From positions 1 to 37,875 of the IMG/VR virus record IMGVR_UViG_3300044995_000332: 37,875 nt of DNA. One strand, given 5' to 3'. The translations under genes were made by a program, and so were the position numbers. The stretch is from a virus. Positions 11,805-35,858 of this stretch are shown in pieces (the first letter of the stretch is position 1; the number at the start of each line of letters is the position of its first letter). The notes under the pieces were generated by a model. It had not been told where the DNA came from. It saw nothing but the letters and a program-made list of their open reading frames with translations, and ran no database searches.

Positions 11805-11829
11805 AATTTTATTTATTTAAAATAAAATT
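11805..11829. terminator. A+T-only hairpin between convergent genes
   Basis: AATTTTATTT and AAATAAAATT form a 10-bp stem around a 5-base loop, between the end of the plus-strand gene at 11769 and the stop codon of the polymerase gene at 11828. The position fits a bidirectional terminator, but in such A+T-rich DNA a chance occurrence is possible. Confidence 0.3.
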
Positions 11830-14800
11830 AAGTATTAACCATGTTTAAAGTTCCGGCATTTACAGATATACCATAATTTGTTTTTGAAAACACACCAACA
11901 ATAACACTATACAAAGGAAAATCTTCTGCTTTACCTTTATAGTTCCAAAGATAGCAATCATATTTGTTATTCGTTTCTGATAACAATGTTAATTTAATAT
12001 AAGGTTTACCTGTTTTAGTGGTTGCATTAATTGCATTAGAAATTATTGCCCAATGTTTTCCATAGTTTTCATTACAAAAATCAATGGAGGAAAAACCAAG
12101 CTCTTCTAATTCATTCTTTTTTTCATCTGAAATAATAAGGCTAGTATTTATAGAGCCTGCCAAAGTAAGAAAATTTTGAATTTTTTCTTCTTTTGTCCAA
12201 TCTGGTTCTTCTTGAACGCTTTGGATTATTTTTTCCAATTCATTTTTTATTGAATTATCTTTTTTCCTTTTTGATATAGTTCTTAGTTTGTCATAATTTT
12301 CAATTAAAGCCAAGTAAATTTGACGATAGTTTTTAAATGTTTTACCTTCTCCAATTAAATTCATAGAATCAAGAGCTTCTAATTGAATAAGTGTTGCAAG
12401 TGCTCTTTTATTAAATTTCGAATGTCTCCAAGACCCATCAGGATTTATTAAAAGATCTTCTAAGGTTTTATATGGGCGAAATTTTTCAATTTCCTGAAAA
12501 ACAGCTAATCCAGTGTATTTCATTGAAGCAAAACCAGGATACAAATCTTTGTTTTTAGATGTAAATCCGTATGCTGAATAATTTATATCTGCTTTCTTAA
12601 TTTTATATCCAAGTTGCTGTGCTTCCATAATAGCAACAGTTTTTGGATCTTCTTTTCCAATTATTTTTCCTTTGCTAATAGTTGCATAATCAATATTTGT
12701 AGTTACCCATTCATCTGGATAATAAGTAAGAAACCAAGCACACTGATATGTTGTAATTGCATAAGCAATTGCATGACTTTTATTAAAAGAATAGGCAACC
12801 AAAGCTTCCATTTCATCAAATATTTTAGATGAAATTTCAGGATCTATATTATTTGCACTTTTACAAAGCCTCAAAAAATTTTCTTTTAATTCTTCTCGTT
12901 CCTTTATTGCTTGTTCTTTATTAGAAATATCTTTTTTCGTAAATGCCTTTCTAACAGAGTCTGTTTCTTCAAGAGGAACTCCAGCAAGCTTATGATAAAT
13001 CATTTGTAATTGTTCTTGAAAAATTAAAAGATTTTCCGTTTCCTTAAGAATTTCTTCTAATAAAGGATGTGCAAGCTTTACTTTTTTTGGGTTTTTTCTG
13101 TTTTCCAAAAACATTTTATCAACACCCAATTGCAACGGTCCTGGACGAAAGATAGAAGTCGCAATTGCAATATCCATAATATTTTTTGGTTTCATTTGAC
13201 GCATAAATTTTTGCGTCATTGGTTGTACAAACTGGAAAATACCCATGTAGTGTCCATCATGAAAAACATGTTTGTATACCGCTGGATCATCCATGTCATT
13301 GTTGTCTGGATGTAGGTTATCCCAAAACCATTTTTTAATTTCTTCAAATGTAGGATTTGGATTTCCTTGTTTTATAAGTATTTTTCTAACTACTTCTTCA
13401 AAAATTCTTAATGTACCAAGCCCAAGAATATCGAATTTTAATAAACCAAACTCTTCAAGATGACGATAGTTTAGGCCCTCTGGCCATGGTGTTTGTAAAA
13501 TACCCCCAAATTTGATAACTGGCATAATATCAGGTGCTTGATCTGTTATAACAACCCCGCCAGCATGTCTAGAAATATTTCTCATTTGTTTAAATAAAAT
13601 TTTTATTGTTTCGCTAAAAGAAGGATATTTTTCAAGTAACTTTCGAAATGTTTCTGAATTTTTTTCCGCTTCTTCAAAAGTTAAAACCCAAGTTTGACGA
13701 TCAAATCCTGGTTGAGACTTGGCAGCAGTCATTGCTTCCAATTCAATTTTAGAAGTCATTGCATTGATTTCCTCAAAGGGAATACCATAAAGTCTGGCAA
13801 CGTCTTTAATTAAAGATCTCAATTGAAGTTGATTGAAATTGGAAACAGATACAACGTTTTCAAATCCAAAATATTCTCTTAGCATTTTTACTGCTTCGTC
13901 TCTATCAGACCAATCGTTATCAATATCTGCGGCGCTTTTCTTTTTTCTTGAAAGAAACCTTTCCCAAAGTGTTCCAAATTTAATTGGATCCACTTGAGAA
14001 ATATTTAATACATATGCAAGCATACTTCCAGAAACAGAACCGCGTCCATTTCCTGTAAAAAGTTTTTTACTTGTAATATCCATAATCTTTTTATATGTCA
14101 AAAAATATTTTACATAATCAAATTTTGTATTTTTTTGCAAATATTTAATATCTTCAAGTTCTTTTTTAAGTCTTTCAATATACTCTTTTTTATTTTGTTT
14201 TTTTCTAAATTTTAAACCTTCTATAGAAAGATTAACGAGTTGTTTAAATAAAAGATCTTCTTCCGAAAGTTGTCCATATTTTTCTATTAATTTCTTTTTA
14301 TCTTCTTCTGAGATAAGTTTGTCTATTCCTGGTAATCTTACTTTTTTCTCTATTCTAACTTCATCAATCATTTCATGTGCAATTGTGTATGTTCTTTCAA
14401 TTGCATCTGAAATATCCTGCATATATTCTTCAAAATGTTTTTTGTAAGGTTTTGTATATTCAACAAAACTTTCCCACATTTGTTCATGATTCTTTGGATA
14501 AAGAACACATTTTAATTGATCAATTTTTTCTGGCAAGGTTTTTACATCAACATCTTTTTTTGTTTTAGATGCCCAAGCCATTGCTTTGTAAATTTCTCTA
14601 GCGCGCCAATGTTCAGGATTTGCATAATGAGAATCAGCCGTGGCAACAATAGGAGTTCCTGTTCTTTTAGCTAAAAATAAAAAATGTTTATTAACTAAAT
14701 GTTGAATTGGCAATTTATTCGCTTGAATTTCAAGAAAATAATTTTCTTTGCCAAAAATTTGTTGAAAAATTCTTAGTTTTTTCTCAAGTTCTTTTTGGAC

Positions 14801-15553
14801 CTTGTCAAAATCATGATCTGTGTCAGGACCCATTGATTTAATGTCGCCTTCGGGAAGATTGTCGTAAATGATTTTGGCCAGGTTACCGGCCAAACAAGCT
14901 TGCAAAGCAATAACATTTCCTTTTACATGTTCTTCTAACATTTTCAAATCTATTCTTGGATATCCATAAAACCCATCTATAAAAGACTTACTTGTTAATT
15001 TGAAAATTGCTTTTAGACCCTCTGTATTTTTTGGCAATAAAACAATATGATCTCTTTGTTTTAAAGGATCGAAAATTTTTGATTTTGAACTCTCTTCATC
15101 TTCAACTACTGTTTCTCCTTCTTCTTCTTCATCTTTTTCCTTGTTTGTTAATTCTTCTTCCAAATCTGCAAATTCGTTACCAATTGCATCAAGAGAATTT
15201 TCTTCTGTTTTGATTTTTTTTTCCTTTTTTTCTTTTATTTTTTTAATTGCTTGAGCATTTTTCAATGCTTTCCACTGATCAAGATCATCAATAAAATAAG
15301 CCTCAATTCCTGGAATAGTTTTAAATTTAATTCCAGCTTTATCGAGAGCTGCTTGTTTCATTTGTTGATGACTAATTCCATTCATATTTCCATGATCAGT
15401 TAATGCTAGTGCATCTGATCCATTTTTCAAAGCAAAGTCAATATGCTCTTGTGGTAATCCTATAGCATCTCCAATTGAGAAAGTACTGTGGGCATGCAAT
15501 CCGACAAATTTTCTTGGTGGACGAACTTCATTATTTTTAAAATTCTCATTCAT
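11828..15553 (-). CDS. dnaE: DNA polymerase III alpha subunit (family C replicative polymerase)
   Basis: A 1241-residue protein, near the usual length of bacterial DnaE. The N-terminal PHP domain shows HAHSTFS (H20, H22), LTDHGN (D53, H54), PGIEAYF and ADSHY. It is interrupted near residues 118-165 by an acidic low-complexity insert. The polymerase domain has GNGRGSVSGS (about 500-509) and ADIDNDW (about 541-547, the first two catalytic Asp, where most family members have PDIDxDF). The third catalytic Asp is in GLLKFDILGLGTL (about 705). A helical region and a C-terminal OB-like part follow. The residues needed for synthesis are present, so it should be an active polymerase. No clamp, clamp loader or separate proofreading subunit is seen in the window. 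AGGAG lies 11 bases before the ATG. Confidence 0.95.
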   Translation of the reverse strand: MNENFKNNEVRPPRKFVGLHAHSTFSIGDAIGLPQEHIDFALKNGSDALALTDHGNMNGISHQQMKQAALDKAGIKFKTIPGIEAYFIDDLDQWKALKNAQAIKKIKEKKEKKIKTEENSLDAIGNEFADLEEELTNKEKDEEEEGETVVEDEESSKSKIFDPLKQRDHIVLLPKNTEGLKAIFKLTSKSFIDGFYGYPRIDLKMLEEHVKGNVIALQACLAGNLAKIIYDNLPEGDIKSMGPDTDHDFDKVQKELEKKLRIFQQIFGKENYFLEIQANKLPIQHLVNKHFLFLAKRTGTPIVATADSHYANPEHWRAREIYKAMAWASKTKKDVDVKTLPEKIDQLKCVLYPKNHEQMWESFVEYTKPYKKHFEEYMQDISDAIERTYTIAHEMIDEVRIEKKVRLPGIDKLISEEDKKKLIEKYGQLSEEDLLFKQLVNLSIEGLKFRKKQNKKEYIERLKKELEDIKYLQKNTKFDYVKYFLTYKKIMDITSKKLFTGNGRGSVSGSMLAYVLNISQVDPIKFGTLWERFLSRKKKSAADIDNDWSDRDEAVKMLREYFGFENVVSVSNFNQLQLRSLIKDVARLYGIPFEEINAMTSKIELEAMTAAKSQPGFDRQTWVLTFEEAEKNSETFRKLLEKYPSFSETIKILFKQMRNISRHAGGVVITDQAPDIMPVIKFGGILQTPWPEGLNYRHLEEFGLLKFDILGLGTLRIFEEVVRKILIKQGNPNPTFEEIKKWFWDNLHPDNNDMDDPAVYKHVFHDGHYMGIFQFVQPMTQKFMRQMKPKNIMDIAIATSIFRPGPLQLGVDKMFLENRKNPKKVKLAHPLLEEILKETENLLIFQEQLQMIYHKLAGVPLEETDSVRKAFTKKDISNKEQAIKEREELKENFLRLCKSANNIDPEISSKIFDEMEALVAYSFNKSHAIAYAITTYQCAWFLTYYPDEWVTTNIDYATISKGKIIGKEDPKTVAIMEAQQLGYKIKKADINYSAYGFTSKNKDLYPGFASMKYTGLAVFQEIEKFRPYKTLEDLLINPDGSWRHSKFNKRALATLIQLEALDSMNLIGEGKTFKNYRQIYLALIENYDKLRTISKRKKDNSIKNELEKIIQSVQEEPDWTKEEKIQNFLTLAGSINTSLIISDEKKNELEELGFSSIDFCNENYGKHWAIISNAINATTKTGKPYIKLTLLSETNNKYDCYLWNYKGKAEDFPLYSVIVGVFSKTNYGISVNAGTLNMVNT

Positions 15554-20091: not shown

Positions 20092-23000
20092 TTATAAACA
20101 TTTTGAATCGCCACAATTTAGACAAGTTACACATCCTTGTTGAAAAGCTAGATTTGTTGATTCGCAAACATCACATTTTTTCTTTGTTGGTTTTGTACCA
20201 TCCTTGATATAATTTTTAAGAACTCTTATCATTGCTTTCGAGAAAGAAAAAAGATCAGATTCTTTATCAGAACCTTTTATTAATTGTTCAACAACATATT
20301 GGACAGGAGTACCATGTCTTAATGCCAAAGACAAAATTCTGGAAAATGCTGAATTTGTTTCATTTTGGAAAATGTTTCCAATATCTTTAATTATAACTTC
20401 ATCTTCTGGATTTTGATAATCATAATGGAAATCATATCTGGATTTCCCAGATGAATTTGTGTTTTTAACAATTTTTCCTTTTTTCACTCTTTTTGGAAGA
20501 TTAATGTGATTAGAAAGACCGCCCATAATTTCATATGGTTTGCCTTCAAGCAATGAAACAAATATAACCCATTTTTCACCACCGATTGTATGGTGATAAA
20601 CATCACATTCAAGTTCGGCTGGTCTTTTTGGTGCATCACGTTCAATTATGCCAACATTTTTTTGTTTTTCAGATTTATCTGATACAAGAACGCCACTTCT
20701 ACAATTTTCACGATATACAGTAACACCCTTACAGCCAGATTCCCAACCAGTCATATAAATTTGTTTTGTAATTTCTATTGGAGTATCTTCTGGGATATTT
20801 GTAGTGTTTGAAATACTATGATCAATCCATTTTTGTGCTGCTGCCTGCATTTTAATCTTTGCTACCCAATCTACATCGTTAGATGTGGATTTGTAATATG
20901 GAGAAATTTTTATTAATTCTTCAATTTTTTCATTTGTAACATTAGACAAGTCTATACCATTAACGTTTGCCCAATCCACAAATCCTTTATGAAAAACTCT
21001 GTATTCTTGCCATTTATCTCCAACATTATCAACAAAGTCAACTCTTGCTTGTTCGTCATTTTGATTTATCTTTTTCCTTCTTTTGTAAGAAATAAGAAAT
21101 ACCGGTTCAATACCTGATGTTGTTTGAGTACAAATTGAAACAGAACCAGCCGGAGCTGTTGTTAAGTTTGCAATATTTCTCCTACCATATTTAAGATACT
21201 CTTGATAAAGCTTTGGATCAGCATCCCAAATTCTCTTCAAAAACAAGTTGTCTTTTTCCAATTTAAAAGAAAAAGCAGGAAATGGTCCTCTTTCTTCTGC
21301 CAATTTTATAGATTCAGCATAAGAGGCTAAACACAAAGTACGATATACATGTTCAACAAAACGGATGGATTCTTCTGATCCATAAGTCATTCCCATCGCA
21401 GCAACCATATCTCCAATTCCAGTTACACCAAGCCCAGTTCTTCTTCCTTGTACACAAGCTTTTCTTATATTTAACCATAGATTTTTTTCTATATTTTTAA
21501 CATGATCAGGTTCTGGATCTTTTTCTATTTTTTGTAGGATGCGATCTACACATTCGATTTCTAAATCTACAATATCATCCATTAATCTTTGGGCTAATTT
21601 AGCCACTTCTTCGAATAATACCCAATCAAAATAAGCATTTTTTGTAAAAGGATTATTTACAAAACTATATGTGTTTACTAACAACAATCTACAACTATCA
21701 TATGCTGAAAGAGTTATTTCACCGCAATTTTTAATGCAAATACCAGAAGATGTAATGCAATTTTCATCTTTTTGTTTTGTAATTACATGATAATTATGAT
21801 TATCGTCAACAGTAATGTTGTAAACATCTTCATATCCCATAAATTCAATTGAAGAAACCTTCATTTCAGGAAATGATTCAATCTCTTCTTTTGTTGTAAC
21901 AACCTGCCGATAACCATTGTTGTTGTAGCTGTAAAATGGAAAAATAGAATCACCTACTTGCAAATCTTTTAACTGTTTATATTCAAGAGTTTTTAACAGA
22001 ATTTTATGATCTGGAGTTGCGACTAAAACACTTCCATCATTAAGAGTTAGTTTGAAAACTTCTTTTTTATTGCCGGTTTTACGAGGATTACGACCCAATT
22101 TAATTTCAACTTCACCTGTTTCAAGGTTGGTGGAGTAAACAGGGACATCTTTTCCTTCATTGGCAAGTTGCTCAATTGTAACAGCATTTCTACCGTCAGC
22201 AACTGCAATAAGTGTTGAACCAACAATGCAAGGATTTGTAGAAATAGATTTAAATTCTGGATATGAAGTAGTTGGACAATAATCTAAAATATTATCCCAA
22301 AACAATAATCCTGGCTCTGCCGAATTATGTGCAGCACTAATAATTTCATCCCATAGTTCAGCCGCATCTACATATTCTTGATATTTTGGATTTTCTTTTT
22401 CATCCACAGGAAATCTTAATTGGACCTTTTCTTTATTCTTAACAGCTCTCATAAATTCATTAGAGATACGAATAGAAATATTGGCACCAGTAACCTTTTT
22501 CAAATCTCTCTTAATGTTTATAAATGTTCTTATTTCTGGATGATGTACTGAAATTGTTAACATTAAAGCGCCTCTACGACCATTTTGAGCCGTTCGGCGA
22601 CATGTATCTGAGAAATCTTCCATAAATACTTCAATGCCATCAGTCGTTCCTGCGGCATTTGTAGTTTTCATACCTTTTGGACGTAATGTAGAAATATCGA
22701 AACCTACGCCGCCTCTACGTTTCATAATTTCAGCTTCTTCAGCGGCTGTGTATTTAATCCCTGACATTGAATCAAACGGACTTGGAATAACAAAACAATT
22801 GCTTATTGACATTATTTGAAAAGGATTGCCAATTCCAGCCATAGGGCTACCTTGTGGAACAATATATTTAAAATTGTTTAAATATTTTAATATTCTTTCT
22901 TCACTAACTGGGTTAGGATATTTTTGTTCTATTCTTGCAAATTCTTTTGCAAGACGTTTGTGCATATAAGATGGATCTGGTTCTAAAATATCACCATCAG

Positions 23001-23100
23001 GAGTTTTAAGTGCATATTTTCCTAAATAAACAGTCGCTGCCAAATTATCATTGTTAAAATATTTTAATGACTGTTCTAAAGCTTCATTATATGTTACCAT
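20092..23100 (-). CDS. nrdJ: Class II (B12-dependent) ribonucleotide reductase, interrupted by an intein
   Basis: A 1002-residue precursor; about 834 residues after intein removal. It reduces ribonucleotides to deoxyribonucleotides using adenosylcobalamin. It shows SNCF (redox C102), RRGGVGFD, the split catalytic motif NP/CGE (N289-P290 and C459-G460-E461), TAPAGSVS, SGIEPVF, and a TSCPD-like region (about 835-945). A C-terminal cysteine-rich tail (CDVC...CVTC, CLNC, DSKC) probably re-reduces the active site. No R2-type partner gene is present, which agrees with class II. A mini-intein occupies residues 291-458. AAGGAG lies just before the ATG. It is preceded by the helicase gene and followed by a strong terminator. 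Confidence 0.93.
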   Translation of the reverse strand: MVTYNEALEQSLKYFNNDNLAATVYLGKYALKTPDGDILEPDPSYMHKRLAKEFARIEQKYPNPVSEERILKYLNNFKYIVPQGSPMAGIGNPFQIMSISNCFVIPSPFDSMSGIKYTAAEEAEIMKRRGGVGFDISTLRPKGMKTTNAAGTTDGIEVFMEDFSDTCRRTAQNGRRGALMLTISVHHPEIRTFINIKRDLKKVTGANISIRISNEFMRAVKNKEKVQLRFPVDEKENPKYQEYVDAAELWDEIISAAHNSAEPGLLFWDNILDYCPTTSYPEFKSISTNPCIVGSTLIAVADGRNAVTIEQLANEGKDVPVYSTNLETGEVEIKLGRNPRKTGNKKEVFKLTLNDGSVLVATPDHKILLKTLEYKQLKDLQVGDSIFPFYSYNNNGYRQVVTTKEEIESFPEMKVSSIEFMGYEDVYNITVDDNHNYHVITKQKDENCITSSGICIKNCGEITLSAYDSCRLLLVNTYSFVNNPFTKNAYFDWVLFEEVAKLAQRLMDDIVDLEIECVDRILQKIEKDPEPDHVKNIEKNLWLNIRKACVQGRRTGLGVTGIGDMVAAMGMTYGSEESIRFVEHVYRTLCLASYAESIKLAEERGPFPAFSFKLEKDNLFLKRIWDADPKLYQEYLKYGRRNIANLTTAPAGSVSICTQTTSGIEPVFLISYKRRKKINQNDEQARVDFVDNVGDKWQEYRVFHKGFVDWANVNGIDLSNVTNEKIEELIKISPYYKSTSNDVDWVAKIKMQAAAQKWIDHSISNTTNIPEDTPIEITKQIYMTGWESGCKGVTVYRENCRSGVLVSDKSEKQKNVGIIERDAPKRPAELECDVYHHTIGGEKWVIFVSLLEGKPYEIMGGLSNHINLPKRVKKGKIVKNTNSSGKSRYDFHYDYQNPEDEVIIKDIGNIFQNETNSAFSRILSLALRHGTPVQYVVEQLIKGSDKESDLFSFSKAMIRVLKNYIKDGTKPTKKKCDVCESTNLAFQQGCVTCLNCGDSKCL
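21727..22230 (-). other. Mini-intein in nrdJ (168 residues, no homing endonuclease)
   Basis: It begins with C291 in CIVGSTLIAVADG (block A) and has block B VLVATPDHKIL (T362, H365). Block F YNITVDDNHNYHV (about 427-439) follows, and it ends GICIKN with terminal N458. The next residue, C459, is the catalytic cysteine of the extein and the +1 nucleophile. The penultimate residue is Lys rather than the usual His. At 168 residues there is no room for a LAGLIDADG or HNH endonuclease. Only a spliced product could be active. Confidence 0.93.
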
Positions 23101-29823: not shown

Positions 29824-31035
29824 TTAAAATATTCTTTCAAAATTAATATAAAAAGTTTTATTTTCAAATCCTAAAATATTTTTTGAACCTGTTTTAGCTA
29901 ACAATGGAACAAACTCTTCAAAATCTTTGTGAATGTCAAAAAAAATACCATCATGTAAAATAAAAATTGGAACAATTTTTTCTTCAAAGTTTAACTCTTT
30001 TATAGTTGAAATTATATTGGAAAATCCTAATAAGGCTACATCAACAGCAGAACTTTGAATAAAGCGATTTATTAAAGCATATGTCCCTATTTCTAAAGTT
30101 GATACTCTTCTACCATAATAATTTTTAATATAAGCTTTATTATTTTTTTCGTATTCTGATAAAAGTTTTTCTTTTAATTTAGAAATTTGAAAATAATCTT
30201 TTATAGCAGAAATCAAATAATTAAGATTTTTTTCTGTAATATTCGGTAGTCTTTCTTTTATAGAAGATATTCCTGAACCATATAACTCGGATATTACAAT
30301 ATTTTTAATGTCAGAACGAGAATATTCTGTTAAATTTTGTGATGTTTTAATAAATTCATAAATATCTTTTGGAGGATTTATATCATTTCTTGTAAGTGTT
30401 AATAAAAGTCGTGGTTCAAGAGATATAAAATCTAAATAATAAATTGAACCATTTGTACCAAATCTAGATACAATCAATTTTCTATATTCTTTTTTTAAAT
30501 TCAAAATATTTGGTCCACTAACAATTTTTAGTCTTCCTGTAACAGTTTGTGTTCTATCATAAACTATTGATTTAGTAAATCCATCTTCCCCAGGTTTAAA
30601 ACTTTCAACATTTGGTTCTAATAAAATTTTATTATAATAATCTTTATCAATTTTAGCAGGTTTTAAAGAATTAATTACAACTTGACCTTTTTTATATATT
30701 TCATAATAACTTAAATCAATATTTTTAATTGATTCATATATTTCTTTTGCTATATTTAACAAAATGTCAAAATATGTTTTTTCAGGAATACAAAATCTCC
30801 ATGGAACATTTGATATAGAACTAAATTTTAATAAATTGCGATATGAATTAATATATTTTTCCGGCGGGAAATTTGGAATATTTATTCCATAAAGTTTTGA
30901 TATTTCTTCAAATTCTTTTGTTCCAACGACAAAACCATCTTTTACATTTTCTACAAAAATATTTTTATTTTCAACAGGATCATATTTTATATCAAAATTT
31001 AATCCTGTGTATTCTTTGCTTAAATACAGATCCAT
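29824..31035 (-). CDS. Minimal family A DNA polymerase-like protein
   Basis: A 403-residue protein from the ATG at 31035 (residue numbers below count two more, from a GTG at 31041). It covers only the polymerase domain; there is no 3'-5' or 5'-3' exonuclease. Recognisable motifs: TVTGRL (166-171) and GPNILNL; motif A LDFISLEPR (D204, E209, R211; Pol I has DYSQIELR); motif B R242-x3-K246-x7-Y254-G255; QSSAVD (329-334, cf. QGTAAD); and motif C HDG (363-365) where HDE is usual. The position matching Pol I F762 is Ile. Most nucleotide and template contacts are kept but the last motif C acidic residue is lost, so it may be weak, specialised or inactive. The start is uncertain, with no clear ribosome binding site. 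Confidence 0.8.
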   Translation of the reverse strand: MDLYLSKEYTGLNFDIKYDPVENKNIFVENVKDGFVVGTKEFEEISKLYGINIPNFPPEKYINSYRNLLKFSSISNVPWRFCIPEKTYFDILLNIAKEIYESIKNIDLSYYEIYKKGQVVINSLKPAKIDKDYYNKILLEPNVESFKPGEDGFTKSIVYDRTQTVTGRLKIVSGPNILNLKKEYRKLIVSRFGTNGSIYYLDFISLEPRLLLTLTRNDINPPKDIYEFIKTSQNLTEYSRSDIKNIVISELYGSGISSIKERLPNITEKNLNYLISAIKDYFQISKLKEKLLSEYEKNNKAYIKNYYGRRVSTLEIGTYALINRFIQSSAVDVALLGFSNIISTIKELNFEEKIVPIFILHDGIFFDIHKDFEEFVPLLAKTGSKNILGFENKTFYINFERIF

Positions 31036-31082
31036 TAACACATTATTTTAGTAAACAAATGCAATAAAATAAAGTTATTTAA

Positions 31083-34280: not shown

Positions 34281-34580
34281 TTATGTAAATCTTTGAATCT
34301 TTGCTGGCGTTTGAAACGGTTTTGTTTTCCCAGTTAAAGATCTTATATATGAAGTGTTATGATGTGGCGCTTTGGTTGGTATATCATTTTTATTTTCAGC
34401 TGCTTTCGATATCTCCTTTCCTATTCTATCAATTAACCATCTTTTATAAGCAACAGGAAATCTTAAATACGTATTCCAATCCATGCCACAATAATAGGTT
34501 AAAAGAAAAAAAGGTTCTAGTATTACTGCTTCTTTATCCTCTGGCGTTAGGCCAAAGAAACGTGGGACCGATTGGAACGG
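34281..34580 (-). CDS. Second frame of the gp26-like gene, probably reached by +1 frameshift
   Basis: This frame is open from just after a TGA at 34583 to the stop at 34281 (99 codons), overlapping the last 47 bases of the gp26-like gene. It reads GLTPEDKEAVILEPFFLLTY, then YCGMDWNTYLRFPVAYKRWL, then IDRIGKEIS. The first ATG (34484) cuts into this continuous segment and has no ribosome binding site, so starting there is unlikely. The hydrophobic-aromatic block before it resembles the ends of other phage chaperone-like baseplate proteins (from memory: ...F.L.Y...L P...R.w...). At 34557-34554 the sequence CTT-T, followed by GGC, would allow a +1 shift like that of prfB. A sequencing deletion is the alternative. 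Confidence 0.65.
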   Translation of the reverse strand, partial: PFQSVPRFFGLTPEDKEAVILEPFFLLTYYCGMDWNTYLRFPVAYKRWLIDRIGKEISKAAENKNDIPTKAPHHNTSYIRSLTGKTKPFQTPAKIQRFT

Positions 34581-35549: not shown

Positions 35550-35858
35550 TTATTTTGTTACATCTTTTTCTCTTGGGAATGATTCTAATTTGCTTAAAGC
35601 ATCTAATATTGCTCTAACAACTTTTGATTTCATTTCTTCCATAATTTTAATATAAGCTTCTTGAACTTCTGGAGACATCTTATCTGGATGAATTAATTTT
35701 AATTGTTTTATAATCACATCTTCGAAATTCATTACTGATTCAGCCGCCGCATGTTGTATTCTGCGAATCGCAGTAAAATCATTATTTTCTTTTAGTGGTA
35801 TAATTTTATTAACTATATTTTCTACCATTTTATTAATCTCAGATTCTTTTATTTTCAT
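35550..35858 (-). CDS. Small helical protein with (I/L)-x-E leader
   Basis: A 102-residue helical protein starting MKIKESEINKMVENIVNKII followed by PLKENNDF. The leader resembles those of the 515-residue and SOD-like proteins, ending in L-x-E. The rest (about 30-95) is a helical bundle with an Ala/Glu-rich stretch. AAGGAG lies nine bases before the ATG. No function known; it may be a head- or tail-associated protein. Confidence 0.6.
   Translation of the reverse strand: MKIKESEINKMVENIVNKIIPLKENNDFTAIRRIQHAAAESVMNFEDVIIKQLKLIHPDKMSPEVQEAYIKIMEEMKSKVVRAILDALSKLESFPREKDVTK

Follow-up and report, generated by a model that had tools for sequence, protein, structure and literature searches.

A putative +1 frameshift at a prfB-like slip codon in a gp26-type, probable tail assembly chaperone gene of T4-related phages

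A gp26-type gene of an uncultivated virus is predicted to yield two products, a short form and a long form that would arise by +1 ribosomal frameshifting close to the end of the gene. We conclude, with a probability of roughly 0.9, that this gene encodes the tail assembly chaperone of a T4-related phage with a contractile tail. That the chaperone is made in a short and a frameshift-fused form had been proposed in an initial annotation of the DNA, and the comparative evidence supports it. The conclusion rests directly on the two reading frames, a conserved slip site, a protein that is continuous across the junction, and homology to gp26 and gp51 of T4-like phages. Throughout, the window denotes the whole stretch of DNA analysed (37,875 nt; IMG/VR record IMGVR_UViG_3300044995_000332), the features of which are collected in Table 1.

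Two open frames at the end of the gp26-type gene

The 303-aa open reading frame scored 44.4 bits with PF12322 (T4_baseplate, gp26; cut-off 24.5), and its match to phrog_150 had an E-value of 5.6e-15. Its C-terminus reads PTFLWPNARG and is followed by TAA, while the +1 frame is open for 99 codons, between a TGA at 34583-34581 and a TAA at 34283-34281. After a +1 slip, residue 297 would be followed by a helical domain of 90 residues, resulting in a fusion protein of 387 aa. The -1 frame of the window runs into a stop after 3 codons, and it offers neither the in-phase heptamer nor the -1-frame domain found at T4-like -1 sites. The initial annotation had described the PNARG-TAA end of the gene, the 99-codon frame and the 47-base overlap, with coordinates that proved exact to the base. 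The CTT-T it had placed before GGC at 34557-34551 was confirmed as well, and its view that the first ATG of the second frame sits within one protein-like segment agrees with the position of ATG 34484 inside the conserved domain.

Table 1. Features of the frameshift locus and its neighbours in the window
Feature	Coordinates	Strand	Basis or remark
Upstream neighbour, 102 aa	35550..35858	minus	tblastn 38% to L011, E 6e-12; 32% to L093
Short form (TAC-N), gp26-type protein, 303 aa	34534..35445	minus	PF12322, phrog_150
Overlap of both open frames, 47 bases	34534..34580	minus	frame reading
Putative +1 slip site TTT CTT T GGC	34551..34560	minus	TTY-YTT-T in 96/96 distinct loci
Slip-site parts: E-site TTT, P-site CTT, skipped T, zero-frame A-site TGG	CTT 34557-34555; T 34554; GGC of the new frame 34553-34551	minus	
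+1-frame C-terminal domain, 90 codons (GLTPEDKEAVILEPFF...IQRFT) + stop	34281..34553	minus	conservation, alignment, model
67-aa ORF from the first second-frame ATG, judged no independent gene	34281..34484	minus	ATG inside conserved domain
Downstream neighbour, 1050 aa	31083..34235	minus	directly downstream of the frameshift gene

Alone, the second-frame segment had no match in Pfam or PHROGs, and tblastn of its 99 aa against phages returned nothing meaningful. Because the latter search was uninformative, the C-terminal domain was traced through reading frames and HMMs instead. We also modelled the 387-aa fusion with AlphaFold2 (67 alignment rows; spliced by reading TGGC as G). The model was only partly confident, with a mean pLDDT of 69 and a pTM of 0.42; its confident regions were approximately residues 80-150 and, within the second-frame domain, helices 301-319 and 331-350 (pLDDT 85-92). 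The first of these predicted helices starts right after the junction.

These data bear on the possibility that a small gene in its own right occupies the second frame, translated from an internal start or by re-initiation after the gp26 stop. Such a gene could begin at ATG 34484, and small genes are indeed annotated at this position in several phages, e.g. S-PM2 and CZ01. However, between the slip site and this ATG, 23 codons downstream, the +1 frame has no start codon of any type, whereas the conserved domain begins at the slip site itself; a protein started there would lose its first conserved helix (model residues 301-319). Moreover, a start near the site is absent from most relatives (84 of 96 distinct loci have none within 12 codons past the slip), and in T4 gp51 the domain and the N-terminal part share a single frame. 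We therefore consider a separate gene highly improbable and return to the frameshifted fusion.

A conserved slip site in a large phage clade

A profile search of IMG/VR, built on a five-row subset of relatives, yielded at least 589 relatives, of which 80 loci were examined. The +1 layout was present in all 80, in each case with the zero-frame stop a few codons past an FFWP, FLWP or FFYP motif. L001 (42% identity), an IMG/VR relative found before these 80, has the same break: frame 0 ends in ASFFWPDAER and a stop, while the +1 frame reads FFGLTPNDREYYLEQSFLLMYYMGFSYWECYNIPVQYR. Fifteen loci on contigs of GTDB MAGs showed the same layout. These were kept out of the building of an HMM for the second-frame domain, which matched the +1 frame in 15/15 of them (E ~2e-13 to 2e-34). 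Isolates with the +1 layout comprised Flavobacterium phage immuto, Microcystis phage Mel-JY01, Bacillus phage SP-15, Listeria phage LIS04 and Streptococcus phage GXN1. The locus thus shows what is expected of a frameshifted chaperone gene, two overlapping frames with a conserved slip site close to where the short form ends, and judged from these sequences the +1 arrangement is fixed in a large, mostly uncultivated clade of myophages.

The window record is one base away from a single frame, as might be the case after a sequencing or assembly error or in a broken gene. Yet the same break occurs at the same codon in ~100 independent contigs as well as in isolate genomes, which leaves this explanation with virtually no probability; we regard it as excluded by the comparative data (80 IMG/VR loci, 15 MAG loci and the isolates).

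Codon usage at the slip site was then compared over 96 distinct loci. The E-site codon was TTT in 89 and TTC in seven, and the P-site codon was TTT in 83 and CTT in 13, but never TTC or CTC. The base after the P-site codon was T without exception (96/96), the A site held TGG (74 loci), TAC (20), TAT (one) or TTC (one), and the zero-frame stop followed 3 to 10 codons past the slip site. The third base of the P-site codon was likewise T in 96/96 loci, though this base is synonymous in the zero frame and goes unread in the new frame; the E-site wobble base, in contrast, is not fixed. Upstream in the same genes, TTT accounts for 73% of the Phe codons and CTT for 23% of the Leu codons. For the 83 Phe P-sites the chance product is 4e-12, a value uncorrected for kinship.

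Most sites contain seven or eight consecutive T, on which RNA polymerase might slip to yield the second frame. The run is broken, however, at the 13 distinct loci that read TTTCTTT, counting the window, and at the seven that read TTCTTTT, and slippage of the polymerase is accordingly extremely unlikely. A ribosomal shift of -2 would reach the same frame as +1 and give a long form with one extra residue at the junction. In such a shift the P-site tRNA could presumably re-pair two bases back at TTT TTT T, and loosely so at TTT CTT. At the seven TTC TTT T loci, however, tRNA-Phe would land on TCT, a problem that recurs in the SP-15 branch at its TTC TTT C sites, whereas a +1 shift fits both. This makes the -2 shift very unlikely and argues for +1.

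Under the +1 model, most ribosomes would remain in the zero frame and produce the 303-residue gp26-type protein. A minority, with CUU-bound peptidyl-tRNA in the P site and UGG in the A site, would slip forward by one base (CUU to UUU), read GGC next and add the 90-residue helical domain, giving the long form of 387 residues. The occurrence and efficiency of the shift, its codon-level mechanism and the chaperone action of the products are inferred. With regard to stimulatory signals, folding of the 50-60 nt downstream of the 96 loci revealed no general RNA structure (mean z -0.6, equal to the control offset), and none was found by folding at the window site. There is no SD-like element just upstream of the window slip site (CCAATCGGTCCCACG); SD-like motifs within 16 nt upstream were present in 30/96 loci versus 2/96 for a control stretch, a count confounded by conserved Gly codons. 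Since neither a general RNA structure nor, in the window, an SD-like element was found, the likely driver is a slip-prone tRNA together with slow decoding of the UGG or UAC that occupies the A site. A second in-frame CTTT follows the slip site in the window.

At its shift site the prfB gene, which encodes RF2, has UGA in the A site, and an SD-like element lies 3 nt upstream. The CUU-U slip codon of prfB recurs in 13 distinct loci, the window included. The likeness drawn by the initial annotation holds for this codon; it does not extend to the stop codon or the SD-like element, as the window has UGG in the A site and lacks such an element.

Departures from the usual site were seen as well. In an SP-15-like sub-branch (L230, L233, L235, L239 and L240), the domain lies in the +1 frame, but just before the gp26 stop some members lack both YTT-T and TTT-C, reading CTA TTC AAT CCC AGT; this sub-branch may slip at CCC-A. 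In L005 (LR756508, a 484 kb phage), the +1-frame domain occurs at ~2700-2741 with the site TTT CTA TTC CCT rather than the usual YTT-T.

Relation to gp26 and gp51 of T4-like phages

In cyanophage S-PM2, gp26 (YP_195240) is followed by a 57-aa annotated 'gp51', which is in fact the out-of-frame C-terminal part, with -1 continuity at T TTT TTC. In 79/79 cyanophage-related IMG/VR loci, T TTT TTC was present and the -1 frame gave the top score with the C-domain HMM of the window clade. The same heptamer accompanies an open -1 frame in Acidovorax phage ACP17, Stenotrophomonas phage Bhz51, Vibrio phage CZ01, Agrobacterium phage OLIVR6 and Aeromonas phage P19, and a T-run variant does so in Pseudomonas phage pf16 and Vibrio phage VP-1. 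In T4 itself, PF12322 is matched by both gp26 and gp51. The sequence of gp26 ends at EFFELL, whereas that of gp51 continues; gp51 is a full-length gp26 homologue with the extension already in frame.

Profile comparison with HHalign aligned the +1 proteins, in spliced form, with their spliced -1 counterparts over 280 columns across the junction (probability 99.9, E 3e-35), and these counterparts with T4 gp51 over 229 columns (99.0, E 6e-18). Because the direct match of the spliced +1 proteins to T4 gp51 was weak (51%), the link from the +1 fusion to T4 gp51 runs via the -1 phages. The second-frame domain is, by this route, homologous to the C-terminal domain of T4 gp51 and of the cyanophage 'gp51'. 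The initial annotation had envisaged a gp26-type protein and its fusion to a gp51-like C-terminal part, to be checked by aligning the spliced reading with gp26/gp51 homologues. That alignment found the block in one frame in T4 gp51, and the fusion stands; the notion of gp51 as a C-terminal part only has to be dropped, as T4 gp51 is homologous over its full length.

The T4-like -1 phages (S-PM2, CZ01, OLIVR6 and P19) share with the window clade homology across the junction, a joint after the FF motif and the two-product logic, but shift by -1 at T TTT TTC, where the window clade would shift by +1 at TTY-YTT-T. T4 gp26 and gp51 similarly represent a short and a long form of one family; they differ in being two separate genes on opposite strands, without a frameshift.

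To place these changes, a tree was built from the N-terminal parts, leaving out the columns of the frameshift trait itself. It requires at least two changes of frameshift direction, its deep joins being unsure with long branches. One separates the +1 clade from the T4-like phages that shift by -1; the other sets off LR756511 and its relatives, which form another -1 group (T TTT TTC) nested within the +1 clade on its SP-15 side. On balance we lean towards the reading that one orthologous chaperone gene has switched frameshift direction at least twice while the fused protein and its joint were kept, and that the +1 class is undescribed. The sites would then run from -1 at T TTT TTC (T4-like) to +1 at TTY-YTT-T or TTY-TTT-C, and again to -1 in the LR756511 jumbo-phage sub-branch.

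In 2022, Vladimirov et al. reportedly proposed gp26/51 as tail assembly chaperones of T4-like phages, some of them with a frameshift. As relayed by papers citing this proposal (PMC10885494; PMC12846349), gp26-type chaperones with a frameshift are thus already a known kind: the former cites it for T4-like phages that encode the short form and the fused long form by separate genes, and the latter for poly-T signals of -1 shifting within the TAC-N genes of phages related to T4. A +1 shift at a prfB-like codon fixed across a clade was not found in the literature searched, the membership list of Vladimirov et al. (2022) aside. What appears to be new here is a forward shift at a prfB-like slip codon, seemingly fixed in a large and mostly uncultivated clade.

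Chaperone fold, gene order and implications

Of the PDB re-alignments of the N-terminal part, the best were to the HK97 tail assembly chaperone 2ob9 (Z 5.6), YqbN 3klu (5.5) and 3fgx (5.3). These three stand apart from the next (Z 3.3), although a Z under 8 is modest and can reflect a common arrangement. A Foldseek search of the model against the PDB gave nothing below E 0.001, and a PDB sequence search gave no match. With modest confidence, the model thus suggests a chaperone-like fold for the N-terminal part.

In phage lambda, gpG and its -1-frameshifted long form gpGT are encoded before the tape measure gene; the G/GT frameshift is widely conserved, T4 being a named exception in 2016 (PMC5009743). 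Compared by description only, the window gene resembles gpG/gpGT in having a short form and a frameshifted long form, and differs in the direction of the shift, -1 in lambda and +1 in the window. A +1 shift is also very likely for the tail chaperone of halovirus HSTV-2 (PMC5009743), another myovirus chaperone gene that, by description, would share its forward direction with the window. If the analogy with gpG/gpGT holds, the short and the long form alike would bind the tape measure protein, and recruitment of tail tube subunits would fall to the added C-terminal domain.

Gene order in immuto and LIS04 is sheath, tube, gp26, second frame and tape measure, which is the lambda G-T position. With regard to the chaperone position claimed in the initial annotation, a tape measure neighbour is seen in these relatives; in the window no tape measure gene was recognised, and the next gene downstream encodes 1050 aa without a match in Pfam, in PHROGs or by tblastn against phages. 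The 102-aa upstream gene is kept beside gp26 in L011 and L093. In L011 (1527-2927, 6491-6889), the nearest relative of the window, genes upstream of gp26 are kept, including a 122-aa homologue of 35550-35858; next come a thymidine kinase and, ~2.4 kb downstream, an ORF resembling the start of a tape measure.

Elsewhere on the minus strand, an intein splicing domain (PF14890, E 3e-12, residues 299-438) interrupts the ribonucleotide reductase large subunit encoded by the window (20092-23100; PF02867). Two polymerase genes are present as well, one for a DNA polymerase III alpha-like protein with a PHP domain (11828-15553; PF07733) and one, with a GTG start, for a 405-aa part of a family A polymerase (29824-31041; PF00476).

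The natural sites place TTY-YTT-T followed by TGG or TAC and the T4-like -1 signal in one protein context, so that the determinants of slip direction become testable. For hundreds of uncultivated phage contigs, in which the C-terminal part tends to stay unannotated or pass as a separate small gene, the +1 reading would supply the missing long form of gp26. Finally, the predicted fold adds evidence for gp26 as a tail assembly chaperone rather than a part of the baseplate.
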